A stretch of 64,000 bases of DNA, taken from the NCBI RefSeq assembly GCF_036670015.1, contig NZ_CP137636.1, positions 474,501-538,500 on the forward strand, given 5' to 3'. The stretch is from Niallia sp. XMNu-256. GTDB taxonomy: Bacteria > Bacillota > Bacilli > Bacillales > Cytobacillaceae. This document shows, one piece after another, positions 18,529 to 58,676 of this stretch; position 1 is the stretch's first letter, and every line of letters begins with the position of its first letter. Below the pieces are notes generated by a model. That model did not search any database and was not told the origin of the DNA. It was given only the letters and a program-made list of their open reading frames with translations. The translations under genes and the position numbers were made by a program.

Positions 18529-19158
18529 TGAATTGCAAATTAATCAATTAATTAAAGGATGCCAATAGGAGACTTTTGATGAAAGAATTTAAGTGTGTGG
18601 ATCAAGCAAGATGCTCCTTTTTTATTTAAAACACAATAATTTTATAAAAGGTTCCTACACATTTAAAAGTGAGGAACTTTATTACGTTATCCCCATCCGA
18701 TTAAAACTATTTTCCTCTTCTTAGCCGTTTTTTGCTGTTATCGTGGTCTTGATAACATCAATTTTCCTATTCCTAGTTGTTATTTGCTGTTATCGCCATC
18801 TTGATAACGGCAACCTTCCAATTCCTGGCTGTTATTTGCTGCTATCGCGGTCCTGATAGAGGTAACTTTCCCAATTCCGGCAGCTTTTTGCTGTTATCGC
18901 CATCTCGATAACGGCAACCTTCCAATTCCTGGCTGTTATTTGCTGCTATCGTGGTCCTGATAGAGTCAACTTTCCCAATTCCGACAGCTTTTTGCTGTTA
19001 TCGCCACCCGATCCTTGTTTTTAGTTAAATGGATTAGGTAAAAGGTACAGATATAGGTGTGTTTCAATAAAATAATAACCTAATTCAATATTTTTTTATT
19101 GAAAAACGATAAATAATGTATTAGAATCAAATATGAAATAATGAAATGAGGTGTATTT
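18529..19158. other. 630-bp intergenic region carrying a tandem array
   Basis: Between the AP endonuclease and yoaS. The middle is occupied by the 52-bp array (18709-19008). The flanks are AT-rich with no further gene. Confidence 0.7.
18709..19008. repeat. 52-bp tandem repeat array, about 5.7 units
   Basis: The anchor TTTGCTG occurs at 18731, 18783, 18835, 18887, 18939 and 18991, exactly 52 bp apart each time. Each unit contains an inverted repeat, GTTATC ... GATAAC, with an 8-base loop. Two unit types alternate (GTTATC/GATAAC and GCTATC/GATAGA), so units 18783-18886 and 18887-18990 are near-copies as 104-bp dimers. The period is not a multiple of three and the units carry stops, so the array is not coding. 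No variable spacers are present, so it is not CRISPR. Confidence 0.95.
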
Positions 19159-19650
19159 ATGAAAAATGGTTCAACACTCTTTTTAAAATTAGCGTTATTT
19201 GTAATAGGTATTCCCGTTTTGGTCCTATGCATCTTTTTATTGCCACAGCTAGCGAACACGGCATTTAGAGAAGCTGCAAACGGAGCCTCATTAGGTTATA
19301 TGGTCCTTGGTATATTAGTGATTATGTATGTTTCCGCGATACCGTTTTACATTGCATTGTATCAAGCGTTTAAGCTTTTAAGTTATATTGACAAGAATGA
19401 AGCTTTCTCGCAAGTGTCTGTAACAGCGCTAAAGAAAATCAAAAACTGTGCCATCTCCATCAGTAGCTTGTATTTGGTCATTATCCCGTTTGTTTTTATC
19501 ATAGCGCAGTGGGATGACGCGCCTGGTCTTGTATTAATCGGCTTGGTTGTTATTGGTGCTTCCCTCGTGATCGCAGTCTTTGCAGCTGTTCTCCAAAGGC
19601 TATTACAACAAGCAATTGATATTAAAAATGAAAATGATTTAACGGTCTGA
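19159..19650 (+). CDS. yoaS: DUF2975 membrane protein YoaS
   Basis: A 163-residue protein with four membrane helices (about residues 8-28, 44-68, 95-118, 125-150) and the DUF2975 signature LLSYIDKNEAFSQVSVTALKKIK between helices 2 and 3. It is followed 9 bases later by a small XRE regulator, the usual partner of DUF2975 proteins, in the same order as yoaS-yozG-yoaT of B. subtilis. The biochemical role is unknown; the pair may act as a membrane-linked regulator. ATG 19159 after GAGGTG. Confidence 0.88.
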   Translation: MKNGSTLFLKLALFVIGIPVLVLCIFLLPQLANTAFREAANGASLGYMVLGILVIMYVSAIPFYIALYQAFKLLSYIDKNEAFSQVSVTALKKIKNCAISISSLYLVIIPFVFIIAQWDDAPGLVLIGLVVIGASLVIAVFAAVLQRLLQQAIDIKNENDLTV

Positions 19651-19659
19651 GGTGAGAGA

Positions 19660-19875
19660 ATGGCAATTATCGTGAATCTTGATGTGATGTTAGCTAAAAG
19701 AAAAATGAGTGTAACAGAGCTTTCGGAGAGGGTTGGTGTAACGATGGCTAATATTTCCATATTGAAAAATGGAAAGGCTAAGGCCATTCGCTTCTCTACG
19801 TTAGAGGCAATTTGTAAGGCATTAGATTGCCAGCCAGGAGATATATTAGAATACAAAAATGATGAGGAAGCGTAA
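19660..19875 (+). CDS. yozG: Small XRE-family regulator YozG
   Basis: A 71-residue protein made of one Cro/C1-type HTH (VMLAKRKMSVTELSERVGVTMANISILKNGKAKAIRFSTLEAICKALDCQPGDIL, given here only as the span residues 9-64). It starts 9 bases after yoaS with its own GAGGTGAGAG site and is surely co-transcribed with it. It is expected to repress its own operon. Confidence 0.9.
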   Translation: MAIIVNLDVMLAKRKMSVTELSERVGVTMANISILKNGKAKAIRFSTLEAICKALDCQPGDILEYKNDEEA

Positions 19876-19951
19876 GGTTAATTTCATAGAAGCAGATATG
19901 TTTTTAAAATAGGTTCCTTTTGTTATTAAAGTTATAAAAGGGGAGTTCTAT

Positions 19952-20773
19952 ATGAATATTACGATTCAAAAGGAATCTCAAAAAAGGTCATCAAAGATCC
20001 AAATTATAAAATCGTTTAAACAACTTGTTCATTTTGGTTGGGAGCAGGCTCTATCTTGTTTGTTCCCAGTTGTTATTTTTTCCGCCTTAGCCATTACACA
20101 AATCGTGCCGCTTCCAATCCTGCCAAGGTATGACTGGCTGCTCATTATCTTCCTTCTCATGCAATGGTGGATGGTGCGTTCTGGGCTTGAGACACGGGAT
20201 GAGCTAAAGGTTATCACCCTATTTCACCTAATTGGTCTAGCTCTTGAAATCTTCAAAGTACATATGGGCTCTTGGTCATATCCAGAGGAAGGCTATTTTA
20301 AAATCTTAGGAGTGCCCTTGTACAGTGGTTTCATGTATGCAAGTGTAGCGAGTTATCTTTGCCAAGCATGGAGAAGGTTAAAGGTTAATCTTGTAAAGTG
20401 GCCTCCGTTTATAGTAGTCGTTCCTTTAGCAGGAGCTATTTATTTTAATTTTTTTACCCATCATTTCTGGATTGACGTTCGCTTATGGTTAGCTGGGCTA
20501 GTCATGATCGTGTTTTGGCAAACATGGGTCACATTTGTGGTAAATGGAACGCGTTATCGGATGCCGCTCGCACTATCCTTTGTTTTGATCGGATTTTTTA
20601 TTTGGATTGCAGAGAATATTGCCACCTTCTTTGGAGCTTGGGAATATCCAAATCAAACAGATGCATGGAGTCTCGTTCACTTAGGAAAGGTGAGTTCATG
20701 GATATTATTGGTGATTGTCAGCTTTTTGATTGTAGCAACGTTAAAGCAGGTTAAGGGAAGGAAAAATGAATAA
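19952..20773 (+). CDS. yoaT: DUF817 membrane protein YoaT
   Basis: A 273-residue protein with seven or eight membrane helices. Marks of the DUF817 family are FGWEQALSCLFPV, LEIFKVHMGSWSYPE, GVPLYSGFMYASVASYLCQAW and the charged-aromatic ENIATFFGAWEYPNQ. It is the third gene of the yoaS-yozG-yoaT neighbourhood, 76 bases after yozG. Function unknown. Confidence 0.87.
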   Translation: MNITIQKESQKRSSKIQIIKSFKQLVHFGWEQALSCLFPVVIFSALAITQIVPLPILPRYDWLLIIFLLMQWWMVRSGLETRDELKVITLFHLIGLALEIFKVHMGSWSYPEEGYFKILGVPLYSGFMYASVASYLCQAWRRLKVNLVKWPPFIVVVPLAGAIYFNFFTHHFWIDVRLWLAGLVMIVFWQTWVTFVVNGTRYRMPLALSFVLIGFFIWIAENIATFFGAWEYPNQTDAWSLVHLGKVSSWILLVIVSFLIVATLKQVKGRKNE

Positions 20774-20795
20774 GTTTTACAGGGGGGGATAGAAA

Positions 20796-21557
20796 ATGGC
20801 AATGAAAATTCCTTTATTCAATCAAAGTCAACCGAGAGAATCCAAACTGAATCAGGAGAGTCATATTCCAGAACATATAGCCATTATTATGGACGGAAAT
20901 GGCCGCTGGGCTGGAAAACGTGGGATGCCTCGATTTGCGGGCCATAAAGAAGGGGTATCAACCATTGTAAAAATTGTTAAGGCAGCCATCAAATATAAGG
21001 TTAAGGTATTGACGCTTTATGCGTTTTCAACAGAAAACTGGAAACGTCCAAAGCCTGAAATAGATTTTATATTGCGGCTTCCTAAGGAGTTTCTCGATAT
21101 TTATTTGCCAGAACTTATATCCAACAATGTACGTATTAACGTAATTGGTGATATGGAAAAGCTCCCATCCTATTCAAGAGAAGCTGTACAGTATGCGGTT
21201 GATCGTACAAGGGATAATGGCGGCCTTCAGCTGAATTTTGCGCTTAACTATGGAAGCAGGCATGAGCTTTTGAACGCCATGAAAAAAATACTCACAGATA
21301 TAAATGATGATAAATTAACTTGGGATGAACTAGACGAACAGCAGGTTTCAAGATACCTATATACAGCAGGACTTCCAGAGCCTGATTTGCTTATTAGAAC
21401 AGGCGGGGAAAAACGGCTCAGCAATTTTCTCCTTTGGCAGCTAGCCTATACGGAATTCTGGTTTACGGATGTGCTGTGGCCTGATTTCTCCGAGACGGAA
21501 TTCCTGGATGCATTGGAAGAATACCGGCAACGCAAAAGGAGATTTGGTGGCATTTAA
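20796..21557 (+). CDS. uppS: Isoprenyl transferase (undecaprenyl diphosphate synthase type)
   Basis: A 253-residue cis-prenyltransferase. HIAIIMDGNGRWAGKRG carries the catalytic Asp that binds the allylic diphosphate; GHKEG, YAFSTENWKRP, the LNYGSRHEL loop and RTGGEKRLSNFLLWQLAYTEF follow in order. It condenses isopentenyl units to make the lipid carrier of wall synthesis. The usual frr-uppS-cdsA context is absent, so this is likely a second copy. An N-terminal extension of about 20 polar residues precedes the core. ATG 20796 after AGGGGGGGATAG. Confidence 0.93.
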   Translation: MAMKIPLFNQSQPRESKLNQESHIPEHIAIIMDGNGRWAGKRGMPRFAGHKEGVSTIVKIVKAAIKYKVKVLTLYAFSTENWKRPKPEIDFILRLPKEFLDIYLPELISNNVRINVIGDMEKLPSYSREAVQYAVDRTRDNGGLQLNFALNYGSRHELLNAMKKILTDINDDKLTWDELDEQQVSRYLYTAGLPEPDLLIRTGGEKRLSNFLLWQLAYTEFWFTDVLWPDFSETEFLDALEEYRQRKRRFGGI

Positions 21558-21660
21558 ACGAGTAAAAAATAGAATGTTGGAGATGGGAACTAGTTCAGAT
21601 TCCTTGCAGGTCATTTATTTATATTTAATAAAAATTATTATCTAGATCTATCAATTTTGA

Positions 21661-21711
21661 TAAAAAGGGGCCTTTACCACAGATATAAGGTGGTATAGGC
21701 CCCTTTTTTTA
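21661..21711 (+). terminator. Terminator after uppS
   Basis: AAAAAGGGGCCT (21662-21673) pairs with AGGCCCCTTTTTTT (21697-21710); the inner TACCAC/GTGGTA arms extend it. Confidence 0.9.
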
Positions 21712-21812
21712 TCATGCTACACAACGTATCATGTATGTAAACCTAGGTTTCTAGGAAAATATGAATCAAAATGGTATAACTTTCATCATAAGAGCATAAG
21801 GAGGAATGGATT

Positions 21813-22385
21813 TTGACACTAGGTGAAAAAATAAAAGAGTTTAGAAAGAAAACAGGTTTATCACAGGAACAGTTGGCGGATAAATTGAGTGTGTCAAGGC
21901 AGGCAATTACCAAATGGGAAAATGACAGGGGCATTCCTGATATTACTAATTTGCAATGTCTTGCTAACTTATTTGATGTGAGTATTGATTCATTAATTAA
22001 TAACTCTAAAAATATTACAACTATCGTAAATAAAGAAGATATTGAAATAGATACATATAAGATTACCGGAAAATGCCGTTCCAAGTACGATGCAGTGGTA
22101 AAAGATAAATATCAAGCTGCTGAAACCATATATCCCCTAATACGAAGGAAAAAATTAAATTTGGCACAAGAAATTGTTGATTTTATTGTCCAGCCTGGTG
22201 TTCTGCATGTTGCGGATGCACTTAACGATATGTCTGCGTACTATTTGGTTGAAACCCATAACAAGCAGCTGCTAGTGCAGGTGACGAAAACATATATCAA
22301 GGGAAAAGAATTAAACATTAAATTTCATTCAAAAAAATGCATAATTGACGGCCATGTTTTTAAAAAGGCTACATACACACTCTAA
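21813..22385 (+). CDS. XRE-family regulator with an unrecognised C-terminal domain
   Basis: A 190-residue protein. Residues 1-65 are a standard XRE HTH (LGEKIKEFRKKTGLSQEQLA, VSRQAITKWENDRGIPDI). Residues 66-190 are an alpha/beta stretch I do not recognise. The start is TTG 21813 behind AAGGAGGAAT. It stands alone; possible targets are its own promoter and the 53-residue ORF downstream. Confidence 0.85.
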   Translation: MTLGEKIKEFRKKTGLSQEQLADKLSVSRQAITKWENDRGIPDITNLQCLANLFDVSIDSLINNSKNITTIVNKEDIEIDTYKITGKCRSKYDAVVKDKYQAAETIYPLIRRKKLNLAQEIVDFIVQPGVLHVADALNDMSAYYLVETHNKQLLVQVTKTYIKGKELNIKFHSKKCIIDGHVFKKATYTL

Positions 22386-22487
22386 TACCCCGTGTTTTAT
22401 TAATCCATAAAATTATTGGTATTGAAAAGGGAATACAGTGAAATATAAACATGTAAAAAAATTTCAATTCAATTGGGGGATTAGGAA

Positions 22488-22649
22488 ATGGAAAAGGAAA
22501 ATAATGATCTAAACGAACTGATAAAAAATAGGGAAAACAGTGAAACTCTTGAAATTAGTTCAACAGGGTATGGATTAGAATCGGTTACACACGAAGCAAA
22601 GGAAAATAAACAGATCGATCGTAACCCGTCAGATTGTGGAGGTTTGTAA
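22488..22649 (+). CDS. Candidate 53-residue hydrophilic small protein
   Basis: ATG 22488 to TAA 22649, preceded by TTGGGGGATTAGGAA, a plausible ribosome site. It is highly charged (17 Asp/Glu/Lys in the first 40 residues), has no hydrophobic segment, and ends in PSDCGGL. It resembles no family I know. It is followed by a good terminator, which supports a real transcript. Confidence 0.4.
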   Translation: MEKENNDLNELIKNRENSETLEISSTGYGLESVTHEAKENKQIDRNPSDCGGL

Positions 22650-22708
22650 GGTAACAGAAGGAAGATGCCGGCCGTTCAAAAAAATTTAGGAATCGCTCTT
22701 GCGCCAGA

Positions 22709-22751
22709 TAGGGTCAGTACCTCAACATTCGAGGGACTGATCCTTTTTATT
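22709..22751 (+). terminator. Intrinsic terminator
   Basis: GGGTCAGTACCTC (22711-22723) pairs with GAGGGACTGATCC (22731-22743, one mismatch), then five T residues. The arms are similar to those of the terminator at 4048-4104. Confidence 0.85.
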
Positions 22752-22902
22752 ACTTCAAATGTTTCGAGACTTTGTAATATTTCTGAGAAAAAAAGAGGAG
22801 TATAGGGGATCGTGTCGAATTATATTTTGTTAAAGATTCAGTTTATTGATATTTTTATGAGCAAAGAGGAATCTTAAAAATATAGAATGATGGGGGATTC
22901 AT

Positions 22903-23943
22903 GTGAGAAAATTAACAGGTTTTATTATGGCTCTAATCACAATCGGTCTAATATTAACTGGTTGTGGAAATGCAGAGCAAGAACAGTCTAACAAGGACGA
23001 TCAGAGCACTGAGAAAGACTCCGTTAATATCGGAATGTTGAAATTAACTAGTTCGGCGCCACTTTTCATAGCTTTAGAAAAAGGCCTTTTTGAAGAAGAA
23101 AACATTAAGGCTGAGGCAACTTGGTTTGAAGCAGCACAACCGATTGCCGTAGCGACAGCAGGAGGCAGCGTGGATGTAGGTGCGACTGGAATTACAGCTA
23201 GCATTTACAATATGGTTGCAGGAGGACAGCAGCTTTGGATTGTAGCTGATAAAGGACGTGAGGAAGAAGGGTATTCATCAACGGCCTTAATGGTAGCGAA
23301 CGATTCGGATATTACGAAAGTAGAAGAACTGAAAGGGAAAAGAGTTGGAATTACACAAACAGGTTCAACGTTCCATTATATGGCAGGCAGGGTTCTGGAA
23401 AACCATGGATTAACATTAGATGATATTGAACTAGTTCCGTTAAATAGCATTCCAGGACTGATGGATTCCTTGAAAGGAAAACAAGTAGATGCTGTTCTAT
23501 TGAATGAACCAAACATTTCAATTGCTGTGGAAGAAGGCTATGGGAAAGTGATTACCCAAGTAGGGGAGGAAATCGATTACCAAACCTCAGCGATCTTTTA
23601 TTCACCAAAGTTTGCTGAAAATCGAGATTTAGCTGTTCGTTTTATGTCTGCCTATGAGAAGGCTGTGAAATATTATCATGATGCTGTACTAATAAAGGAA
23701 AACGGGGAACTGGTAAAGGGTGAAAATTATGATGAAGTTATCAACATCATTGCCAAATATACCGACCAGGAGCCAGCCTTAATTGAAAAAGGTCTACCTT
23801 ATATTGAACCAAAAGGAAGATTATTAGAGGAAGATATTCAAACACAGATCGATTGGTACGCTGAGAAAAAATTGATTGAGAATAAGATTGATAGCAGTGA
23901 GATTGTGAATACAGAATTTCTAGAAGAAGCCTTGAAAAAGTAG
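22903..23943 (+). CDS. SsuA/NMT1-type ABC transporter substrate-binding lipoprotein
   Basis: A 346-residue lipoprotein with lipobox LILTGC (Cys21). The mature part is an NMT1/SsuA-like binding protein (SAPLFIALEKGLFEEENI, DVGATGITASIYNM, GKRVGITQTGST, LLNEPNI). Such proteins deliver alkanesulfonates, taurine, nitrate or thiamin-pyrimidine precursors. The pocket does not decide between these from reading alone. First gene of a three-gene importer operon; the ATPase gene starts 7 bases later. GTG 22903 after GATGGGGG. Confidence 0.87.
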   Translation: MRKLTGFIMALITIGLILTGCGNAEQEQSNKDDQSTEKDSVNIGMLKLTSSAPLFIALEKGLFEEENIKAEATWFEAAQPIAVATAGGSVDVGATGITASIYNMVAGGQQLWIVADKGREEEGYSSTALMVANDSDITKVEELKGKRVGITQTGSTFHYMAGRVLENHGLTLDDIELVPLNSIPGLMDSLKGKQVDAVLLNEPNISIAVEEGYGKVITQVGEEIDYQTSAIFYSPKFAENRDLAVRFMSAYEKAVKYYHDAVLIKENGELVKGENYDEVINIIAKYTDQEPALIEKGLPYIEPKGRLLEEDIQTQIDWYAEKKLIENKIDSSEIVNTEFLEEALKK

Positions 23944-23950
23944 GAAGTGA

Positions 23951-24736
23951 ATGGACATCATGAGAATCGTCGTAGAAAATGTAGGAAAAACCTTTGTTGA
24001 CTCTAAAAAACACGAGGTAACGGCTTTAAAGGATATTAATTTTTCAATTGGGGAAGAAGAATTTGTCGTTCTTGTCGGTCCAAGTGGATGTGGCAAATCA
24101 ACCCTTTTAAATATTGTGGGCGGCCTCATGTCGCCCAGTACGGGGCAAGTGTATTTTGAAGGAACAACAGGGAAGGATCCTAAATTAGGCGTTGTGTTTC
24201 AGGAAATTGCTTTATTTCCTTGGCGGACCGTTTACGAAAATGTGATTTACGGTCTAGAGGAAAATGGGAATAGTAAAAAGGAGTGCCAAGAAAAGGGTAA
24301 ATATTATATTGATATGGTAGGACTAACTGGGTTTGAAAAAGCTTATCCGAAACAGCTATCAGGGGGAATGAAACAGCGTGCTGGAATTGCCAGAGCTCTA
24401 TCCGTGGAACCTGATTTGTTATTAATGGATGAACCTTTTTCAGCTTTGGATGCACAAACACGAACGCTTATGCAGGAAGAGCTGCTTCAAATTTGGGAAC
24501 GAACCCGATTAAGCACCTTGTATGTCACGCATAATATTCAAGAAGCGGTTGCTTTGGCTGATCGGGTAATTGTGTTGTCGCGACACCCTGGACAAATTAA
24601 AAGTGTCATTCATATTGATTTGCCAAAAATGGAGCGTCAACAAGAGCAGTACCGTGAACAATTCGAGCATTATTCCAATGAGATTTGGAATTTAATACGC
24701 CATGATGCGCAAGAAGCGTTAAAGGAGGCGTATTAA
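23951..24736 (+). CDS. SsuB/TauB-type ABC transporter ATPase
   Basis: A 261-residue ATPase with Walker A GPSGCGKST, Q-loop VFQEIALFPW, signature LSGGMKQRAGIARAL, Walker B LLLMDEPFSALD and H-loop TLYVTHNIQEA. The RTLMQEELLQIW segment after the D-loop is typical of the nitrate/sulfonate/taurine subfamily. It lies between the binding protein and permease genes and ends on the base before the permease ATG. Confidence 0.92.
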   Translation: MDIMRIVVENVGKTFVDSKKHEVTALKDINFSIGEEEFVVLVGPSGCGKSTLLNIVGGLMSPSTGQVYFEGTTGKDPKLGVVFQEIALFPWRTVYENVIYGLEENGNSKKECQEKGKYYIDMVGLTGFEKAYPKQLSGGMKQRAGIARALSVEPDLLLMDEPFSALDAQTRTLMQEELLQIWERTRLSTLYVTHNIQEAVALADRVIVLSRHPGQIKSVIHIDLPKMERQQEQYREQFEHYSNEIWNLIRHDAQEALKEAY

Positions 24737-25528
24737 ATGCAAGAATCAAGAACGATTATTAAAAATAAGGTAGATTTTCTTGATAAGAAAGTTCCACGCT
24801 ATGCTCCCGTATTGGGAATCATTGGAATCCTTATCGTATGGGAGATCGTTTGCAAATTGCAAATTGTTCCTCCGTTATTTCTACCAGCGCCAACGGCCAT
24901 TTTACTAGCTGGCTGGGACATGATTATTTCGGGAGAGCTTCATCAAAACCTATTAGCAAGTCTTTACAGGATTGTAGGTGGTTACTTTATCGGAGCTATC
25001 GTTGGAATCATTATAGGACTGATTCTCGGTTTTTCAAAGTGGGCAGATGCCATTCTAAATCCGATTGTTTATTCCATTTATCCAATTCCAAAAATTGCCC
25101 TATTGCCACTCATTATTTTATGGTTTGGAATCGGAGAAATGCCAAAAGTTGCAATTATTGCACTTGGGGTCTTTTTCCCGGTAGTGATTAACACGTATTC
25201 AGGTGTAAAAAATGTCGATTCGATTCTCATTAAAGCGGCTGTCACATTTGGCTCGAATCACTTTAATGTCATACGAAAGGTCATCTTGCCAGGTGCTCTG
25301 CCAACAATCTTTGCCGGATTGAGATTATCTGCAGGTACATCACTATTACTTCTTGTCTCTGCTGAAATGATTGCAGCAAAGAATGGGATTGGGGCAATGG
25401 TTCTGCACTATGGAAATTTGATGGTCATCACTAAATTAATGGTTGGGGTCCTAGTCCTCTCTCTCCTCGGTCTACTCTTTAACAAAGGATTACACTGGCT
25501 TGAAGGAAAACTTCTACCGTGGAAATAA
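24737..25528 (+). CDS. SsuC/TauC-type ABC transporter permease
   Basis: A 263-residue permease with six membrane helices and the EAA-like loop IKAAVTFGSNHFNVIRKVILPGALPTIFAGLR. It completes the importer encoded from 22903. The stop codon (25526-25528) lies inside the end of a dispersed structured element in reverse orientation. Confidence 0.92.
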   Translation: MQESRTIIKNKVDFLDKKVPRYAPVLGIIGILIVWEIVCKLQIVPPLFLPAPTAILLAGWDMIISGELHQNLLASLYRIVGGYFIGAIVGIIIGLILGFSKWADAILNPIVYSIYPIPKIALLPLIILWFGIGEMPKVAIIALGVFFPVVINTYSGVKNVDSILIKAAVTFGSNHFNVIRKVILPGALPTIFAGLRLSAGTSLLLLVSAEMIAAKNGIGAMVLHYGNLMVITKLMVGVLVLSLLGLLFNKGLHWLEGKLLPWK

Positions 25529-25576
25529 AGTGAAACTTCCATAAGTGGGGGCTTTCCTGTCCGTTTAGCCTGATAA
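25525..25576 (-). repeat. Deletion derivative of the TTATCAGG...CACTTTAT element (copy 4)
   Basis: Read on the minus strand it begins TTATCAGGCTAAACGGACAG and ends in CCCCCACTTATGG, AAGTTTCACTTTAT. These are the two ends of the long element seen at 30131, 36113 and 52492, joined with the middle lost. It overlaps the permease stop codon. Confidence 0.7.
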
Positions 25577-25579
25577 AAA

Positions 25580-25623
25580 GTAGCCTGACACTATTTAGAA
25601 ATAGATGGTGTCAGGCTTTTTTA
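25580..25623 (+). terminator. Terminator of the Ssu-like operon
   Basis: AGCCTGACAC (25582-25591) pairs with GTGTCAGGCT (25608-25617), then six T residues. Confidence 0.9.
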
Positions 25624-25639
25624 CTTTATTCAGCAAATG

Positions 25640-25905
25640 CCTTTTATAACAAAAGCTTGCGGCAGATCCGGAAGTTCTCTACTTCTATAAGTGGTAGAGA
25701 AAAACTATTATTGCTAAATGAAGTGAGGTCTCCCTAGAATGCCCCGGAGGCTTTAAGGTGTTTTATCAAGAGAGCCGACGACTTTCAACTGACTGAATAT
25801 ACATTCAGTTGAAAGTCACAGGATGTGGCGATTTGACACGTGATATATACCCGGACGCAAATTCGGCGGGCGGATGTGTTATTTAAAAACGTACACGGTT
25901 TTCAA
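25640..25905. repeat. Mobile-element relic with a 13-bp perfect hairpin
   Basis: No gene is present. The stretch shares AAGGTGTTTTATC (25755-25767) and CGCAAATTCGG (25855-25865) with the insert of the long element at 36113-36501, and CTTCTATAAGTGG-type sequence as well. GACTTTCAACTGA (25780-25792) and TCAGTTGAAAGTC (25805-25817) form a perfect 13-bp inverted repeat. It is probably debris of the same element family. Confidence 0.5.
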
Positions 25906-26013
25906 AGGTAAAACAGAAGACTTTCCTGCATTTCATTAGGTCTTTTCATATCTAACTCGAAATAGGGAAAACTTCAATTAGTAAACAATTAACCCAAATG
26001 AGGTGATGATTTG

Positions 26014-48966: not shown

Positions 48967-49003
48967 ACAATTTAAGGTGTATGAAGGTTGTAGTACAGCT
49001 TGT

Positions 49004-49025: not shown

Positions 49026-49115
49026 TAACAGAAACATTGGTTAATTGAACATTTTTTTATTTTCACTGTACTAACCACTTAATACAACACACTATGGTTT
49101 AGGAGTTGGGTTCCT

Positions 49116-49490: not shown

Positions 49491-49501
49491 GGGGGAGAAC
49501 C

Positions 49502-50191: not shown

Positions 50192-51024
50192 ATCGTTTTT
50201 TAAAGCTTGTGAATTTCGAAGTGAATCGATTTCTAAGGATTTACCTTGTATTAATAGGGATCACGATTCTTTTCCAGATGATTGCCGTTATTACATCGTC
50301 TCGCGAATACCTAAGTCGTGTTGATGACCTTATTTACAGGGGATCTATGCCAAAGAAGATGTTCCTAGATCAATACGGGACGTTCACATTGTTCGATGTC
50401 ACTAACAATTCTCTTTGGTTTATTAGTCCGATTTTTCTAAGTATTGCTGCGTTAATCTTTTATGTCTTTTTTATTTGGTATCGCGATTGGTTTGGTAAAA
50501 ATACATTTATTTATCGATTGTTAATGTTGCCAACTGACCGGATGAATGTATATTTAGCCAAATTCACAACCATTTTATTATTTGTTTTCGGACTTGTCGC
50601 TCTACAGCTACTATTATTACCTTTAGAAGGTCAAGTGGTAAAATGGATGGTTCCAAACGAGTTCTACTCAGACATGACTATCTATGAAATAATCAAAAAT
50701 AATATAATTTTAAGCCTTATTATTCCGCGCTCATTTTTTGAATTTGTCCTTGCTTATGGGATTGGAATAACAGCTGTATTAATCGTGTTTACAGCCGTTC
50801 TATTTGAACGTTCTTTCCGTTTAAAAGGAATTATTTATGGAATTATCTATTGTGCTTTATCACTTTTCATCTTTTTACTTCCAATTTTAGTTGATGTCTT
50901 TGTACTTCGTTATTATTTTTATCCAATTGAGCTGTTTATCATTGAAGTAGTCGTAATCTTACTGCTTCTAGCAGGTGCACTATGGATTGGAAGTTATCTG
51001 ATCAGAAATAAAATAAGAGTTTGA
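50188..51024 (+). CDS. ABC transporter membrane subunit, six helices
   Basis: A 278-residue protein with six hydrophobic segments (about residues 16-34, 82-100, 120-140, 172-205, 210-240, 245-270), the layout of ABC-2 type permeases. It overlaps the ATPase gene by 4 bases. There is no sequence motif I recognise; assignment rests on layout and position. Confidence 0.75.
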   Translation: MNRFLKLVNFEVNRFLRIYLVLIGITILFQMIAVITSSREYLSRVDDLIYRGSMPKKMFLDQYGTFTLFDVTNNSLWFISPIFLSIAALIFYVFFIWYRDWFGKNTFIYRLLMLPTDRMNVYLAKFTTILLFVFGLVALQLLLLPLEGQVVKWMVPNEFYSDMTIYEIIKNNIILSLIIPRSFFEFVLAYGIGITAVLIVFTAVLFERSFRLKGIIYGIIYCALSLFIFLLPILVDVFVLRYYFYPIELFIIEVVVILLLLAGALWIGSYLIRNKIRV

Positions 51025-51041
51025 TGGGAGGGATATTATAA

Positions 51042-52262
51042 ATGAAACGTTATTGGAAATTAATCATTCTAAGTCTTGTCACAGTTGTTGTGATTGGAAC
51101 TTTTTACACACAAGCTAGTTTAGCTAATAAAGCAGGTATAAACATTGAGTTTGAGAAAATAACAGGCAATGAAGAAGAACTAAAGGATCTTATGATTTAT
51201 GGAGATTATTCAATAGGGCATATGTACCAGCCATTACAAATCACAACTGAAGGTACCGTTAATCCCTATGATCGTTCATTTATTGAACAACTCTCGCCAG
51301 CCAACAGTTCACCGATTTTTAAGGATTGGATTAAGGATCATAAAAAGTTTATGCGCGGAAAGGATCTAATCCCATCTAATTTTTTTGAAAATGAAAGTAT
51401 ATTGGTGTATGCGAGTTTTAAGGGAAACTTCCATGATTACCCTAAACAAAATATTGCCTTTGATATTGATATTTTAAATAAAAATTCAGGAGAAACGTTT
51501 TCCATTCAAACAGACGTCCCGTTCTTGGAAAAATATGATTGGATGAATATAGAGGATGTTCAACTGGTCGATAATGAGCTAAAGTTATTGGTCAGAGGGT
51601 TTGGAATGGAAGGCGGAAATGATTTAAAGGTGTATACCTTTGATGTGAAAGAGCAACAAATCGTTGGAAATGACACGATCGTTTCCCTTGAAACAGCATC
51701 AAACAGCTGGACAGAAATGGTGATTATCAATGAATTGCACAACTCAATTACTTCTCAAAAATATTATGTGATTAAATTAGAGACATTTGAAGCAGAGGAA
51801 GTCCAAAGCGATGGATTTACAAGCAGCACTGAAGGCGAACCGAAAACCATCGCAAATGAAGTCCTTCTATATAATATTGAAAACGACGAAGTGAAACAAT
51901 GGGCGATTCCCGACGAAATGAAAGCACTTTTGGATATGTCTATTATTTCTCAATCGTCCATCTATACGTATATGCAATTAGATGAAGGGATTGAAGTCAG
52001 TCAATATGATTTGGAAAAAGAAAAATGGATTGGAAAACAGACCTTTCATTTAAAACAGAGTATAGATAATGAAAACCCGCCCTTTATTAAAATCATGAGT
52101 GGAAAAATCTATATGATTTCTGCAACAGATGATGGACATACCTTGTTAATCGGAGATTTAAACACTGGAAAGTCATTATATGAAGGAAAACTAGTCGTTA
52201 AAAATAAAAAGGAAAATCAACAAGGCTATCGGCTTTATTTTAATGAAATTGATTCACTATAA
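51042..52262 (+). CDS. Exported membrane-anchored protein of the GntR-ABC operon
   Basis: A 406-residue protein with an N-terminal signal anchor (residues 7-25) and an otherwise hydrophilic, extracytoplasmic beta-rich body. The repeating pattern of strand-turn blocks (EVLLYNIENDEVKQWAI, SQYDLEKEKWIGKQTFHL, TLLIGDLNTGKSLYEG) suggests a beta-propeller-like fold. No lipobox. It begins 17 bases after the permease gene. I do not recognise the family; an accessory sensor or substrate-capture role for the transporter is inference. Confidence 0.65.
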   Translation: MKRYWKLIILSLVTVVVIGTFYTQASLANKAGINIEFEKITGNEEELKDLMIYGDYSIGHMYQPLQITTEGTVNPYDRSFIEQLSPANSSPIFKDWIKDHKKFMRGKDLIPSNFFENESILVYASFKGNFHDYPKQNIAFDIDILNKNSGETFSIQTDVPFLEKYDWMNIEDVQLVDNELKLLVRGFGMEGGNDLKVYTFDVKEQQIVGNDTIVSLETASNSWTEMVIINELHNSITSQKYYVIKLETFEAEEVQSDGFTSSTEGEPKTIANEVLLYNIENDEVKQWAIPDEMKALLDMSIISQSSIYTYMQLDEGIEVSQYDLEKEKWIGKQTFHLKQSIDNENPPFIKIMSGKIYMISATDDGHTLLIGDLNTGKSLYEGKLVVKNKKENQQGYRLYFNEIDSL

Positions 52263-52291
52263 GTGAAAAATTAGTAAGTAAAGAAAACTAT

Positions 52292-52334
52292 GTGCCAGGT
52301 ACCTTCCGGTTTGGAGAGTACCTGGCTCTTTTTA
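52292..52334 (+). terminator. Terminator of the GntR-ABC operon (GTGCCAGG-type repeat)
   Basis: GCCAGGTAC (52294-52302) pairs with GTACCTGGC (52318-52326), then CTCTTTTT. The arms are a variant of the GTGCCAGGCACC palindrome that recurs at 52466 and 53990. Confidence 0.85.
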
Positions 52335-52344
52335 ATGGTAGCTT

Positions 52345-52460
52345 TAATGATTGGCTATTATTTCAATGATTCGGTCCTCCACTAGTTTTCCCGCTGTCTT
52401 CATCAACTAGATTATTTAATAGAACGGAAACAATCACGGCTTTTCCTTCCTTTATTTCAC
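52345..52460 (-). pseudogene. 3' stub of a dacC-like D,D-carboxypeptidase gene
   Basis: Minus-strand translation gives EIKEGKAVIVSVLLNNLVDE, which aligns with VETKDGKTVIVSILLNNLIYE at the end of the intact dacC (56369-57829). After a one-frame shift it continues VEDRIIEIIAN against VEDRIVELIANQ. Only the last 39 or so codons remain. The 5' break is next to a GGCACCTGGCC repeat (52468-52478) and 32 bp before a structured element. Non-functional. Confidence 0.85.
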
Positions 52461-52465
52461 ATATG

Positions 52466-52480
52466 GGAGGCACCTGGCCT
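52466..52480. repeat. Short GGCACCTGG repeat at a gene-stub junction
   Basis: GGAGGCACCTGGCCT. It shares the CACCTGG core with the palindromic terminators at 52292 and 53966. Confidence 0.4.
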
Positions 52481-52491
52481 CTATATCCTCC

Positions 52492-52704
52492 TAATCAGAC
52501 TTAACGGCAGTAAGACTTCCACCTAAAAGTCCTAGTGTAATAGAAGAAGTTAGGGGGGGTCAACACTGCCCGTAAAGCTCAGAAATAAAAACACAGACTA
52601 AATACACCTCCGGCAAATGTCTATGTGGCCAGCATGTTGCTAGTTATAACTAACCATCGGTGGGGAGACGAAAGAACCCAACACTGATGGAAGTTTCTCT
52701 TTAT
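52492..52704 (+). repeat. Structured dispersed element (copy 3)
   Basis: 213 bp from TAATCAGACTTAACGG to GTTTCTCTTTAT. It keeps the GGCAGT / ACTGCC arms, a degenerate inner stem, the CACAGACTAAAT segment, CCTCCGGCAAA and the 3' hairpin region (CTAACCATCGGTGGGG ... ACTGATGG). More diverged than copies 1 and 2. It ends 84 bases before trpB. Confidence 0.7.
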
Positions 52705-52788
52705 AGAAACTATTAAAATTTTCATAAATAATTGTTATACTAACAAAGAATAGATTTATTTCGAAGTAAGAGAGGAGATAGTTGAGAT

Positions 52789-53958
52789 ATGACGAGTATG
52801 GAAGAGAATAGGGTAAAAGGCTATTATGGAGAATTCGGTGGCAGTTTTATACCAGAAGACCTTCAAAAAGCGATGGATCAAATTGAAGAGGCATTTTTAC
52901 GTTATAAAAATGATCCTGAATTTCTACAAGAATATGAATATTATTTGAAAGAATATGTGGGTCGGGAAAACCCATTAACATACGCTGAAAACTTAACAAA
53001 TAAAGTTGGCGGAGCCAAAATCTATCTGAAACGTGAAGATTTAAATCATACAGGTGCTCATAAGATTAATAATGTTTTAGGGCAAATTTTAGTGGCTAAG
53101 AAAATGGGAATTAAAAGAATTATTGCAGAAACTGGGGCAGGACAGCATGGGGTTGCAACTGCTACAGCATGTGCTTTGTTTGGCATGGAATGCGTGATTT
53201 ATATGGGTAAAAAGGATACGGAAAGGCAAGCTCTTAATGTGTTCCGTATGGAATTGCTGGGAGCAAAGGTGGTGGCAGTAGATAAAGGTGAGGGTCACTT
53301 GGCAGAAGCAGTAGATGAGGCATTAGGTGATTTAATGCAAAACTACAAAAATACCTTCTATTTAATCGGTTCTGCGGTTGGGCCACATCCTTATCCACAG
53401 ATGATTAAAGAATTCCAAGCGGTTATTAGTAAAGAATCAAAGAAACAAATTCTTGAAAAAGAAGGTAAGCTGCCAACTGCAGTTGTTGCTTGTGTTGGAG
53501 GCGGAAGTAATGCGATTGGTGCATTTGCTCACTATATCGAAGAACCAAATGTACGTCTAATCGGGGTAGAACCTGCAGAAGCTGCTTCTCTTTCAAAAGG
53601 AGTTCCGGCAGTTTTACATGGATTTAATAGCTATGTATTGCAAGATAAAGATGGAAATCTATTACCGACACATTCCATTGCTGCCGGCTTAGACTACCAA
53701 AGTGTTGGACCTGAACATAGTTATTTAAGAGATAGCGGCAGAGGCGAATATGTGCCTGTAAGCGGACAAGAAGCTTTGGAGGCTTTTCAAATCTTATCCC
53801 AAGAGGAAGGAATTATTCCTGCCCTTGAAAGTTCTCATGCAGTAGCCTATGCGATGAAATTGGCAAAAGAGTTATCAAAGGATGATATTATCATTGTTAA
53901 CCTATCTGGACGTGGAGATAAAGACGTTGAACAGGTTTTTGAAATGCTAAAAAAATAG
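52789..53958 (+). CDS. trpB: Tryptophan synthase beta chain, outside a trp operon
   Basis: A 389-residue TrpB1-type enzyme that joins indole and serine. Lys92 in HTGAHKINN binds PLP, Glu114 in AETGAGQHG is the catalytic acid, VGGGSNAIG is the phosphate loop and NLSGRGDKD ends the site. Alpha-subunit interface segments (the GSAVGPHPYP region) are normal. No trpA or other trp gene is adjacent: upstream is a repeat element, downstream an IS element. It may be a second TrpB used for indole salvage. ATG 52789, or the internal ATG 52798, after AGAGGAGATAG. Confidence 0.92.
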   Translation: MTSMEENRVKGYYGEFGGSFIPEDLQKAMDQIEEAFLRYKNDPEFLQEYEYYLKEYVGRENPLTYAENLTNKVGGAKIYLKREDLNHTGAHKINNVLGQILVAKKMGIKRIIAETGAGQHGVATATACALFGMECVIYMGKKDTERQALNVFRMELLGAKVVAVDKGEGHLAEAVDEALGDLMQNYKNTFYLIGSAVGPHPYPQMIKEFQAVISKESKKQILEKEGKLPTAVVACVGGGSNAIGAFAHYIEEPNVRLIGVEPAEAASLSKGVPAVLHGFNSYVLQDKDGNLLPTHSIAAGLDYQSVGPEHSYLRDSGRGEYVPVSGQEALEAFQILSQEEGIIPALESSHAVAYAMKLAKELSKDDIIIVNLSGRGDKDVEQVFEMLKK

Positions 53959-53965
53959 AGATGAA

Positions 53966-54016
53966 AAATACCGGATACCATCCATATAATCTTGGAAGGT
54001 GCCTGGTATTTTTTTC
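53966..54016 (+). terminator. Terminator after trpB
   Basis: ATACCGGATACCATCC (53969-53984) pairs imperfectly with GGAAGGTGCCTGGTAT (53994-54009), followed by TTTTTTT. Contains GGTGCCTGG, related to the repeat at 52292. Confidence 0.8.
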
Positions 54017-54178
54017 CTAGTGAGTTTAAAAGGCTGAATTAAACAATTTAGGATAACCGGCGAGAATCCTCCCTATTTCAATAGGGAGATGAATCGCCTT
54101 TTTTTAATTATTAACTATACATATAGTATAAAGAGTCGAACTGTTGTTCCTTTTTTGATTATTGTGTATAATATATAT

Positions 54179-54549
54179 ATGGAAAATGGATCCAGTAAAA
54201 CAAATTTAACCCACGCTAGAACCTGTGTGTATAACGTCAATTATCATATTGTTTGGTCCGTTAAATATTGAAGACAAGTATTAACTCTGGAAATTGAACA
54301 CTACTTACAGGAGCTATTTCAAGGATTACAGAAGATAAAGATTTTGTTGTTTCAATGGTTGTTGGAGAACAAGATAATGTTCATGTTTTTTGCCTCCATA
54401 CACCCAAATGTTTCCCATCTTAAATCGATAAAATGTTGAAAGGGATTTCAGGTAGAAAATTGTTTCTGAACTATCCAGAGATAAAAGAACAGCTATGGAA
54501 AGGGAGGTTATGGAGCAGTAGTTTTTATCTTGAAACAGTCGGTTCTTAA
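54179..54549 (+). pseudogene. tnpA: tnpA, Y1 (HUH) transposase, degenerate
   Basis: Begins MENGSSKTNLTHARTCVYNV and NYHIVWSVKY, the usual IS200 TnpA start, then meets TGA where Arg is expected (KYRRQ). The following frames read EDKDFVVSMVVGEQDNVHVF, in which the first His of the HUH motif is Asn, and later MLKGISGRKLFLNYPE, LWKGRLWSSSFYLETVGS. At least one stop and two frameshifts; it cannot be active. Confidence 0.85.
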
Positions 54550-54585
54550 ATATATTGAAAAACAGAATAATAGGGGGTGAGGGAT

Positions 54586-56188
54586 ATGGCAGAAACAAGG
54601 TCTGTATTTTTACATGGTAAACCCACCGTTCATAAAATGAATCTGTTAAAAAACACTCAAAAAGAATACACAAATCTCATTAATAAATTTATAAATAGGA
54701 TGGGTCAAGACCCTACTTATTTACTAGACTTGTTAACTAACAATAAACAGTCACCAAAGGTAAGAAATCTGGAAAAAGAAGTACGTAAAGGTCATCAACT
54801 TGGTTCAGCGTATGGACAAAATGCAGTGGACATGGCCGTTAAAGAACTGCATAATCATGTCATTCGTATTCGGAATAAGGTTTACGGGTTTATCCAACAG
54901 CATCATCCAGAAATGGAGGTGTATATATCTTTTCTATCCTTATTGAATGCGACCGTTATGAAAGCGGATGAAATGGCAATGATTCAAGGTTTAATCGAGA
55001 AGGAAAATCAAAAAGAGAAACCTTCCAAATCCAAAGTTGATGATTATCAAAAGCTATTGATGAAGTTAAAGGCATTAAGTGAAGAAAAACGTGAGTATTA
55101 TAAGGAAACAGTCGCAAATCTCTTTCTGGACAAGCTAAAATACATGAAATTGCCTTTTTTGACAAAAAGTGTCCCCCTTCAATTGGATTCTCGCCTCTCA
55201 ACATTAGAAAAGTCCCATTCCACAAAAGAAGCTTTTATTGTATATGTAAAATTACTTGGAGAAAAAGACCGGGTAGCTTTTCCGGTAAGTACTTCAAGAA
55301 ATGGATTACGCCGAATGAAACAGTATGATACAGGATCAATGACGATCAAGTTAACGGATCATGGAAAGGTTCGAATTGGAGTTCCATTTACGAAAAAAAT
55401 TGAAACGAAGAAAATTCCCAAAAAGAACATCCTTTCCTTTGATGCGGGTATTACAGATTTAATCTTTACAAATACAGGAAATCCTTACGGTAGTTTTTGT
55501 GGAATGAGGCAGCTTTATGAAGAGGTCGTAGAAATAAAATTAGGTCATCGATCTTCCTTACGAAATAAAATGAGAGACTATCAAAAGGAATTAAAGAAAA
55601 GCACTAATCGATATGAAAAAGAAAGATTAAGGGGGAAAGATCCAAAAGATCGCTGCTTCACTGAATGGAAAAAAGAAAAAGGACAAATGCCTTCGTCAAT
55701 ATGCTCACGAAGCAGATTTACGTATAAATGAGGCGGCTTACTTATTTATAGAAGAAGTGAAAAGATCTCATTCCTTTTGTGTATATGAAGACTTAGATAT
55801 TACTGAGTTTGACCGAGGAACGAGAAACAACAAACGGGATAGTATGTGGATCCGAGGTCAACTAACGAAAAAAGTCCAATCTAAATTAAATTGGCTAGGC
55901 ATTCCACATATGGCTGTAGATCCCGCCTACACTTCAAAGATGTGTCCTAAATGCTCCAATATTGATGACAAGAACCGGAAAGGTAAATTTTTTGTTTGTA
56001 CCGTGTGCAAGCATGAAGATGACGCAGATCATAATGCAGCTATCAATATTGGACAACGTGCGCTTGATGATGAGGTGTTAAAGCTAGTTGAAAAGTATCG
56101 ATATAACACCAATAAAAGGCACTCCGCATTAAAAGAATTATTTAAAAAACGTCACCGTAGCTATATAAGTATTAAGTCAGTGGCTTAA
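54586..56188 (+). pseudogene. tnpB: tnpB-related RuvC-type accessory gene, one frameshift
   Basis: Two frames (54586-55731 and 55757-56188) form one protein of about 533 residues. RuvC-like motifs are ILSFDAGITDLIFT (Asp), FCVYEDLDITEF (Glu) and DADHNAAINIG (Asp), with the zinc ribbon CPKCSNI...CTVCKHE before the last. The shift is in an A-run at 55644-55647 (CCAAAAGATCGC): removing one A restores GKDPKIAAS and full continuity. TnpB and relatives are RNA-guided nucleases. This copy is inactive as read unless the indel is a sequencing error. ATG 54586 after GGGGGTGAGGG. Confidence 0.85.
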
Positions 56189-56368
56189 TACTTATATAGC
56201 CCAATGAACCTCTTACCCATTCATTGGGGGAAAATCTTCGAGTTCATCATTACTCATTTGTAATGCGCTGTCCGAAGGTGTATCAGCTAATGATCGGATG
56301 TGCAGGTCTGTTGTTTGACCGTATGTTTGAAAAGTTAAAAGATGCTCGGTATTTCAATGCCGAGAGGT

Positions 56369-57829
56369 TCACTGATTAGCTATTAGTTCTACGATTCGAT
56401 CTTCCACTTCTTTTCCTTTGGCTTCATAAATGAGATTATTTAAAAGGATTGAAACGATCACGGTTTTACCATCTTTTGTTTCGACATATCCGGCTAAAGA
56501 GGTGACCGTCGATAGAGTGCCTGTTTTAGCTTTAACATTCAGAGGCTTCATTCGGTTTCTTAATGTTCCGCCAACCATTTTGTTTTGTTTACCTGCAACG
56601 GGTAAGGAGGTTGCGAAAGCGGGAAACCAAACTTCCTTTTGGACATGAAATAATAGCTGTGAAATTTCGTTCGCCGGAATTAAATTCACATGAGAAATTC
56701 CAGAACCATCTCTGATGACTACATCTGTAGGATTTACACCGAATGTAGGAAGTTCCTCTTTTAACACTTGGAGTCCTTTTTCCCAGCTGCCCTCGCCTAA
56801 TCTTCTTTTCCCCATTTCTTTTACGAGAGTTTCTGCATGGCCGTTATTGCTTAGTTTCATAAAGGGGATGAGGAGCTCTGACAATGCCATTGATGTATGA
56901 CTAGCTAGAATATCAGTGTTTTGTGGGGTGACCCCTGGTTTTCCAGTTCCCAAAAGTTTAATCCCTTGTTTCTCCAGTTCCCCCTTAAATAGATCAAGAA
57001 CGAATACAGTTGGTTCCCAAACGGAAATATATTCTTTCTCTGTTTTCGTCTCTATGGGTAGGAACCCTTTTACAATGACCGTGTTTGTTCCATGTTTTCG
57101 CTCAACTGAAAGGTCGGTGTTTCCTTCGGGTGATCCGGTTAAGGTTTGATTGATGACTTGGACATAATTGGTTGCAGGCGAAAGTTGAATTTGTGCGGGT
57201 TCACCGATGTTTGACCCTGGTGAAATATCCATTAAAACAGTGCCTGAATCAAAGTCTTTATCTGGAGAAATGGTTAGCGCAGAAATTTGCGATCCGTAGT
57301 AGGCAGATTCATCACTCCAGACTAAATCCGGTGATAAACGAACATCATCATACCAACTATCATCACCAATTAAACTCCCTTCAATTTTAGTGACACCTGA
57401 GTGGGATAATCTTTTCGCCATGTTCGTAAGGTCTTCTTTTAATAGAGTAGGATCCCCATACCCTTTTAAATACAAATTCCCTTTAAGTATTTGTCCCTCT
57501 ATTTCGCCATCGGTTCGAAGCTCTGTCTTAAATTGATAATTTTGCCCTAATACGGACAAAGCGGCTGCAGCGGTAAAGAGTTTTAGATTCGAGGCAGGTC
57601 GCATCCGAATATCCCCATTATGTTCATAAAGGATCTCGCCAGTACTTGCACAGCGAACACTAATTCCTGTGAGACTACCTTTTAAAAGGGGGTCATTCTG
57701 TAACAGTTGATCTAATTCATTTTGAAAAGAAGGACTTGTTTTTTGTGCAAAAGAGGTTGAGGATGCTATTAATAACATAACTAGGGTAATAATAACGTAA
57801 ATATATATAGCTTTTTTAGATTTGTTCAC
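56369..57829 (-). CDS. dacC: D-alanyl-D-alanine carboxypeptidase/endopeptidase (S13, PBP4a type)
   Basis: A 486-residue class C penicillin-binding protein. Signal peptide (residues 6-28), Ser80-xx-Lys83 in RPASNLKLF, the S13 insertion domain (about residues 90-300), KLSNNGHAETLVKEMG with SxN, and AKTGTLSTVTS as KTG. It trims or cuts peptidoglycan stem peptides outside the membrane. The length equals B. subtilis DacC (491). The stop codon overlaps the right end of the IS element, whose hairpin may also serve as its terminator. A 3' stub of a second copy lies at 52345. Confidence 0.93.
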   Translation of the reverse strand: MNKSKKAIYIYVIITLVMLLIASSTSFAQKTSPSFQNELDQLLQNDPLLKGSLTGISVRCASTGEILYEHNGDIRMRPASNLKLFTAAAALSVLGQNYQFKTELRTDGEIEGQILKGNLYLKGYGDPTLLKEDLTNMAKRLSHSGVTKIEGSLIGDDSWYDDVRLSPDLVWSDESAYYGSQISALTISPDKDFDSGTVLMDISPGSNIGEPAQIQLSPATNYVQVINQTLTGSPEGNTDLSVERKHGTNTVIVKGFLPIETKTEKEYISVWEPTVFVLDLFKGELEKQGIKLLGTGKPGVTPQNTDILASHTSMALSELLIPFMKLSNNGHAETLVKEMGKRRLGEGSWEKGLQVLKEELPTFGVNPTDVVIRDGSGISHVNLIPANEISQLLFHVQKEVWFPAFATSLPVAGKQNKMVGGTLRNRMKPLNVKAKTGTLSTVTSLAGYVETKDGKTVIVSILLNNLIYEAKGKEVEDRIVELIANQ

Positions 57830-57959
57830 TATATTCCACTTCCAGCTTTTTTAATAGCTATTTTTAACTAAGACTAACGTTCTTATGTATAAAAAAGCAT
57901 TATGGGATAAAAATTTTAGATGAATCTTACCATCGAATGAAGATGTGAGACACGGCCCA

Positions 57960-58676
57960 AATAAGAGAGGTGGTTTCGGACAGAATCCGTGCGATTCAGG
58001 CTAGCAGAGTTCGAAAGAGAGGTGGTTTCGGACAGATTACATGAGATTCAGGCTGGCAGAGTCCGAAAGAGAGGTGGTTTCGGACAGAGTTGGTGAGATC
58101 CAGGCAGGAAAAGTCCGAAAGAGAGGTTAGTTCGGACAGATTACATGAGGTTCAGGCAGGCAGAGTCCGAAAGAGGACTTAGTTCGGACAGATTCCGTGA
58201 GATTCAGGCAGGCAGAGTCCGAAAGAGGACTTAGTTCGGACAGAATCCGTGCGATTCAGGCAGGAAGAGTCCGAAAGAGGACTTAGTTCGGACAGATTCC
58301 GTGAGGTTCAGGCAGGCAGAGTCCGAAAGAGGGCTTAATTCGGACAGATTCCGTGTGATCCAGTCAGGCAGAGTCCGAAAGAGGGCTTAGTTCGGACAGA
58401 ATACGTGAGATGTAGGTAGGCAGAGTCCGAAAGAGAGGTTAGTTCGGACAGAATACGTGAGATGTAGGTAGGCAGAGTCCGAAAGAGAGGTTAGTTCGGA
58501 CAGAATACGTGAGATTCAGGCTAGCAGAGTCCGAAAGAGGGCTTAGTTCGGACAGAATTCGTGCGATCTAGGCTGAAAGAGTCCGCAAGAGAGCCTAGTT
58601 CGGACAGAATACGTGAGATGTAGGCTGGAAGAGTCCGCAAGAGAGCTTAGTTCGGACAGAATACGTGAGATGTAGT
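57960..58676. repeat. 52-bp tandem repeat array, about 13.8 units
   Basis: CGGACAG recurs at 57977, 58029, 58081, 58133, 58185, 58237, 58289, 58341, 58393, 58445, 58497, 58549, 58601 and 58653, always 52 bp apart. Most units carry GTCCGAA and TTCGGAC facing each other across 11 bases. Units differ by scattered substitutions but never in length. Stops and the non-triplet period rule out coding. The right edge is fused to a symporter gene stub. Confidence 0.97.

Follow-up and report, generated by a model that had tools for sequence, protein, structure and literature searches.

Intergenic tandem arrays with a constant 52-bp unit in Niallia sp. XMNu-256 and related genomes: candidate sites for a protein acting on helically phased DNA

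The window considered here, a 64,000-nucleotide stretch (C1:474501-538500) of the 4.36-Mb genome of Niallia sp. XMNu-256 (G000), contains two intergenic tandem arrays, called array 1 and array 2 (Table 1). We compare these arrays with each other, with arrays in related genomes and with published repeat elements. We will argue that the length of the unit is kept while much of its sequence changes, that its A/T content is phased with the DNA helix, and that the arrays may be double-stranded sites for a binding or wrapping protein.

Table 1. The two arrays and the genes beside them, in window positions
Feature	Position	Strand	Description	Basis
Xylose-isomerase-like TIM barrel (PF01261)	17695..18528	+	left of array 1	Pfam match
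Array 1, class B	18709..19004	.	intergenic, 5.7 units of 52 bp, arms TTGCTGTTATC-N8-GATAACGGCAA	Tandem Repeats Finder, anchors
DUF2975 protein (PF11188)	19159..19650	+	right of array 1	Pfam match
D-Ala-D-Ala carboxypeptidase, S13 family (PF02113)	56369..57829	-	left of array 2	Pfam match
Array 2, class A	57975..58671	.	intergenic, 13.4 units of 52 bp, arms GTCCGAA-N11-TTCGGAC	Tandem Repeats Finder, anchors
77-aa reading frame	58678..58911	+	start adjoining the last unit of array 2	no Pfam match
2-hydroxyacid dehydrogenase (PF02826)	59087..60046	-	right of array 2	Pfam match

The initial annotation had described an exact 52-bp period in both arrays, with one inverted repeat per unit and different unit sequences, and all of this was confirmed. 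Tandem Repeats Finder (TRF) gives period 52 for array 1, with 73% matches and 2% indels, and for array 2, with 88% matches and 0% indels. The anchors agree: TTTGCTG stands at six sites in array 1 (18731, 18783, 18835, 18887, 18939 and 18991; spacing 52), and the 14 sites of CGGACAG in array 2 (57977-58653) are always 52 bp apart. A period of 104 suits array 1 better (95% matches in TRF), because two unit types alternate in it; best periods of 103-105, like this higher-order repeat, were also seen at three other loci (L048, L058 and L274). The consensus of each array holds one inverted repeat, imperfect in array 1 and of the form GTCCGAA-N11-TTCGGAC in array 2. Both arrays are non-coding, with no frame of at least 80 aa covering them (overlap 0). 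Open frames do overlap some arrays elsewhere, for example L015 by 0.9, and 52 is not a multiple of three.

Elements of this type are already known, and their constant length is in print. It is reportedly also the subject of a paper by Subirana and Messeguer in the Journal of Bacteriology (2020, e00229-20). Their later survey covers 176 Bacillus genomes and counts 4029 arrays, 1886 of them with 51-53-nt repeats; in about 30% of the species the length is a constant 52 nt while the sequence varies, and no function is assigned (Subirana & Messeguer 2021, PMC8161180). Its Table 4 lists no array of 51-53 nt for B. subtilis 168. Both window arrays, with 5.7 and 13.4 copies at 52, fall within the definition used there (51-53 nt, at least 4 repeats, at least 60% of equal length). 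They also resemble the published repeats in being non-coding, in the presence of several unit families per genome, in their patchy distribution among species, and in that short signals and their reverse often stand in one unit. The authors propose either small RNAs or a protein that requires a constant repeat size and would polymerise along the DNA, stabilising the nucleoid (PMC8161180).

The arrays fall into several motif classes. An inverted repeat is clear (score at least 7) in 23 of 39 array consensus units, with arms of 7-13 bp and loops of 5-11 bp, compared with 1.5% of 195 shuffled units; the remaining 16 score below 7. Class A has the form GTCCGAAT-N9-ATTCGGAC, class B TTGCTGTTATC-N8-GATAACAGCAA and class C GTCTTCAT-N7-ATGAAGAC, and further unit types occur in other genomes. 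In a set of 81 genomes (XMNu-256 and 80 relatives), where some exact-motif matches are single sites rather than arrays, the exact class A motif was found in 12 genomes (337 forward sites, against 3 forward matches for the reversed control pattern) and the class C motif in 11 (110 sites, control 0), while the strict class B motif is confined to XMNu-256 (control 0). Class A pairs 52 bp apart occur, among the matches listed, in Neobacillus, Mesobacillus, Robertmurraya, Aquibacillus, Peribacillus, Bacillus methanolicus, Sporosarcina globispora and Ammoniphilus; the scan that names these carriers fixed the spacing at 52 and is uninformative on the period. Since the same arms are found across genera and families, they are not species specific. 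This differs from the published account, which calls the repeat sequences species specific and without sequence conservation (PMC8161180). That statement is not borne out by Table 1 of the same paper, where B. oceanisediminis and, in part, B. alkalitelluris have class A arms, and B. horikoshii, strain m3-13 and B. coagulans have arms that differ from class C by one altered or additional base. Lone class C palindromes also lie between convergent genes at L228, L234 and L239, where they resemble bidirectional intrinsic terminators; class C arrays may grow from such single copies.

That the length is fixed across unrelated units, as initially proposed, holds well beyond the window. A lag detector (score at least 34) was applied to 2.464 Mb from four genomes, namely 1.664 Mb of XMNu-256, 0.4 Mb of G036 and 0.2 Mb each of G040 and G058, the last three picked because motifs had matched them. 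All 26 strong non-coding arrays have a period of 52 (22 arrays) or 103-105 (4 arrays), and none lies near 42 or 62. Arrays are classed as coding here only if their period is a multiple of three; 13 were so classed, and the 51-bp arrays, one each in G040 and G058, count as coding by this rule. With a lower score threshold, XMNu-256 also yields weaker non-coding repeats, whose periods are diverse. When 397 genomes of the order were searched and spacings of 37-67 bp were allowed between plus-strand motifs, 41 of 45 class A pairs and 103 of 107 class C pairs, among the pairs listed, were exactly 52 bp apart, that is, 144 of 152 together, with the others at 46, 48, 51, 51, 53, 53, 53 and 56. The fixed length also holds between arrays of one genome whose unit sequences differ, in several motif classes. 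The initial annotation would have given up the idea if periods were broadly spread or indels common, and among the strong arrays neither was seen. A 200-kb control from E. coli K-12 gave a single strong array, of period 98 (L290, 18420-18570, in the gap between aceA and aceK), which we take to be probably a bacterial interspersed mosaic element (BIME).

Two other lengths were encountered on the way. A period of 21, about two helical turns, was found in 13 of 57 non-redundant TRF arrays from the XMNu-256 stretches, coding and non-coding unsorted, and 20-21 nt is named as a second constant repeat length in Bacillus (PMC8161180). Repeats of 51-bp period adjoin class A sites at two loci of G041 (L092 and L103), which is possibly a lineage with a shifted unit length.

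Within arrays, substitutions are tolerated and indels avoided, much as the initial annotation had it. We found 6699 substitutions and 72 indel bases in 1016 adjacent unit pairs, which makes indels about 90-fold rarer, where indels were counted for spacings of 49-55 alone. The 132 class A arrays, with 1194 sites, have 1062 successive spacings, of which 972 equal 52, while 51 occurs 33 times and 53 occurs 32 times; the loci were mostly retrieved by a pattern that fixes one 52-bp spacing. The variability within class A arrays is 2.4% in the arms, 13.4% in the loop and 12.8% in the linker; the arm scan tolerates at most 3 mismatches, which pushes the arm value down somewhat. It is important to note that class A arrays were mostly found by the class A motif, so that arm conservation between arrays is partly circular; the reversed-pattern controls and the position-unbiased stretches are free of this circularity. 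Of the changes in class A arms, 461 are one-sided, 13 are two-sided and non-pairing, and only 7 are compensatory, which means that the arms are kept as sequence more than as pairing. The linkers differ between arrays (of 129 class A consensuses, 101 are left once those that agree by 75% or more outside the arms are removed), and the unit length is retained while they drift.

We now consider the helical phase. In 143 arrays, including duplicates, the strongest low harmonic of the A/T content is the fifth of 52 bp, corresponding to 10.4 bp, and it exceeds shuffled sequences 2.7-fold for single bases and 3.3-fold for A/T dinucleotides. The phase is alike in class A, class C and the remaining arrays: the dyad is G/C-rich, and A/T-rich positions follow half a turn away and each turn on. 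In class A, a T-rich tract lies 26 bp from the dyad, at the half-unit point. With arms and loop masked, the phase is still locked to the dyad, both in 66 non-redundant class A arrays (z -8.8) and in 18 other arrays (z -5.6), two of which are degenerate class A; when the latter group was rechecked with 16 arrays lacking any class A half-site, z was -4.6 and 15 pointed in the same sense. The 7 arrays of this group that are neither A nor C give a linker phase with z -2.6, 7 of 7 in the same sense. The published units, mostly from other species, behave similarly. Table 1 of PMC8161180 prints 27 units, of which we took the 18 that are 52 nt long and set aside 9 with other lengths; in these 18 the fifth harmonic is raised 2.75-fold, a value reached by 0 of 2000 shuffles, and the 11 units with a clear dyad have a linker phase of z -6.4. 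The dyad-locked 10.4-bp phasing would give the conservation of length a physical reason. The initial interpretation is supported in part, for the fixed length and, independently through the phasing, for the equation of 52 bp with five helical turns. Helical phasing alone is insufficient to explain why units have five turns and not four or six, and the strict adherence to five, out of all whole numbers of turns, suggests that a protein acts directly as the ruler.

The arrays are also polar with respect to replication. On four replicons with located dnaA (XMNu-256, G036, FJAT-27251 and S. globispora, two of which are draft scaffolds), the leading strand is the one richer in purines in 29 of 33 arrays, or in 28 on rounded values, as one of the 29 (L058) is at 50% within rounding. 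The leading strand was set by half-chromosome from dnaA, as which we read the start of C1 in XMNu-256, and the FJAT-27251 and S. globispora loci come from the scan with spacing fixed at 52. Array 2 of the window follows the rule and array 1 is among the four exceptions. The mean purine content of the leading strand is 0.595 in the arrays and 0.524 (s.d. 0.041) in 630 other intergenic gaps of XMNu-256; the polarity may partly be general strand composition, though the array mean exceeds that. Where both neighbouring genes are on the lagging strand, 5 of 6 arrays still follow replication. Judged by the bases of their flanks, 21 class A arrays divide into 18 oriented alike with respect to replication, 2 oriented the other way and 1 mixed case, L157 of S. 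globispora, the only one scored in which both flank orientations occur (15 of each). Among the 82 of 132 class A arrays for which both neighbours were called, with crude frames, 28 lie between convergent, 7 between divergent and 47 between co-directional genes, and an orientation set by neighbouring genes was rejected, the picture being mixed. If the polarity holds on more complete genomes, it ties the arrays to the replication or organisation of the chromosome rather than to transcription. As far as the available text of PMC8161180 goes, arm sharing, the difference in variability between arms and linkers, the rarity of compensatory changes and of indels, the dyad-locked phasing and the replication polarity are absent from it. 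Phasing or polarity may be reported in the authors' 2020 paper in the Journal of Bacteriology.

As read from the sequence, exact period, arm conservation, avoidance of indels, dyad-locked phasing and a mostly replication-based orientation are properties of the arrays themselves. The explanation that we prefer, and to which we give about an even chance, is that the arrays serve as double-stranded sites on helically phased, bendable DNA, where a protein binds cooperatively or wraps the DNA. Dyad-symmetric binding sites would be set five helical turns apart, so that every palindrome is shown on the same face of the DNA, and the A/T-rich patches at each turn, which keep a constant phase relative to the centre of the palindrome, would make bending or wrapping in one plane easy. 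A putative protein, or a small family of paralogues with one member per motif class, would bind the arms and polymerise or wrap along the array to form a nucleoid, supercoiling or domain-boundary element. The protein itself, its cooperative binding, the bendability and the nucleoid role are what we infer from these properties. A more far-reaching version, which we put forward only tentatively, is a modular, sequence-agnostic scaffold in the intergenic DNA of Bacillales chromosomes: palindromic operators that can replace one another, each recognised by a separate paralogue of one protein family, would sit on a five-turn, phased, bendable and fork-oriented unit and build nucleosome-like or filament-like domains. 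The arm classes shared between genomes could serve as a specific bait for the candidate protein.

Several observations weigh against this explanation. No binding protein was found, and among the genes within 2.5 kb of class A arrays no family recurs beyond the 10 loci of one common family, which we read as ABC transporters. The classes are patchy, with class A pairs in 8 and class C pairs in 19 of 397 genomes of the order. With arms masked, the fifth-harmonic power in class A is weak (ratio 1.08), although the phase is coherent over many arrays, and the phase of class B agrees in only 2 arrays, too few for a phase test of that class alone. The phasing was measured on sequence, from which bendability would follow indirectly. 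Asymmetric flanks and replication polarity are not required by a purely dyad-symmetric binder, and the repeats are transcribed in B. coagulans (PMC8161180).

Among known systems, the closest comparison is with the BIME-2 and repetitive extragenic palindromic (REP) elements of E. coli, which are likewise intergenic clusters of palindromes (PMC6379681). BIME-2 is bound by gyrase, at whose sites G/C content varies in phase every 10 bp; these sites are enriched behind operons with high transcription (PMC6379681). Sequence-kept dyads, five-turn spacing and phased DNA fit protein binding, by analogy with these gyrase motifs; the likeness concerns how the arrays may work and is not evidence for gyrase as the partner. 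The REPs of BIMEs alternate in orientation (PMC2817692), whereas the 52-bp units are direct repeats of exact period, and 20 of 21 scored class A arrays are uniform, with 1 mixed. With clustered regularly interspaced short palindromic repeats (CRISPR) the arrays share regular repetition and a division into conserved and variable parts. The linkers are, however, alike within each array instead of unique to each unit as CRISPR spacers are, and the period of 52 is constant.

Neutral satellites, single-stranded hairpins and RNA hairpins have to be weighed against the double-stranded binding sites, and we consider all three less likely. Neutral or selfish satellites would arise if replication or repair duplicated 52-bp segments and kept the arrays uniform, the length then reflecting a mechanism and not a function. 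Units are indeed alike within arrays, linkers differ between arrays to the extent described above, the polarity mostly follows replication, and strains of B. coagulans conserve array position and length only partially (PMC8161180). A pure length-setting mechanism does not predict, however, that the arms vary five-fold less than the linkers, that the linkers hold a dyad-locked helical phase or that the same arms occur in different genera, and this argues against satellites, which we regard as unlikely. Still less probable, in our view, are RNA hairpin arrays, whose transcribed units would serve as small RNAs, as sponges for proteins or as terminators. This idea comes from the authors of PMC8161180 and is in line with transcription in B. 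coagulans RNA-seq data, with the excess of convergent over divergent neighbours and with the terminator-like class C singletons. Against it are the 7 compensatory and 461 one-sided arm changes, the lack of Rfam matches in 12 loci at gathering thresholds, the 5 of 6 arrays that follow replication with both neighbours on the lagging strand, and the phasing, helical phase not being a property of RNA. Because compensatory changes are rare and no Rfam family matches, an RNA stem was rejected as the principal explanation.

We assign a similarly small chance to hairpins formed in single-stranded DNA on the lagging-strand template, which would be the substrate of a hairpin-reading enzyme of a REP/TnpA-like or recombinase-like kind. 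The polarity suits them, in that the purine-rich strand is the leading, G-rich strand and therefore the lagging-strand template, and so do the sequence conservation of the stems, the imperfect stems in several non-A classes, and a Y1_Tnp gene about 0.5 kb from a class A pair in G019. At that locus (G019:C7, about 201357-202311) the Y1_Tnp match spans 201357-201689 and the class A sites are at 202235 and 202287, the sole such closeness among the rows listed. On the other hand, a dyad-locked 10.4-bp phase in the linkers makes sense in duplex DNA alone. No specific link to REP-associated tyrosine transposases (RAYTs) was found: Y1_Tnp (PF01797) occurs in 69 of the 81 genomes, 11 of 12 with and 58 of 69 without class A sites, and being nearly everywhere it hardly discriminates the carriers, for which reason the RAYT/REP interpretation was not adopted. 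The Y1_Tnp copy of XMNu-256, with a 265-aa open frame, adjoins different, GGGACGG-type repeats. Finally, array 2 has no match in phage and plasmid records and no class A pairs were found in viral contigs, and phage or plasmid carriage was rejected on these grounds.

It remains to describe where the arrays lie. In XMNu-256, all 68 exact class A sites listed are in 0.30-0.64 or 3.34-3.96 Mb, 40 stretches from 0.92-3.17 Mb contain no 52-bp array at a score of at least 20, and one class C singleton is located at 2.28 Mb. Origin proximity was rejected as a general rule, as FJAT-27251 has 24 sites all round the chromosome; the class A positions of S. globispora are mixed, among the matches listed. 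Outside XMNu-256, a search for synteny within the genus gave one weak match, in 1 of 4 genomes. Arrays L015, L145 and L196 lie near the same three genes in three genomes, at differing distances; we take these genes to be alr and a MazEF-like pair. The GGGACGG-type repeats mentioned above (L062, 9985-12029; C1 about 3.798-3.800 Mb), with their Y1_Tnp match at C1:3800306-3800638, are distinct from the 52-bp arrays and presumably represent an ordinary RAYT with its own REP elements. In the window, about 1.8 kb from array 2, a short frame with a Cas12f1-like TNB domain (55757-56185) is read as a TnpB-like remnant, and the 384-aa frame that precedes it has no Pfam match.

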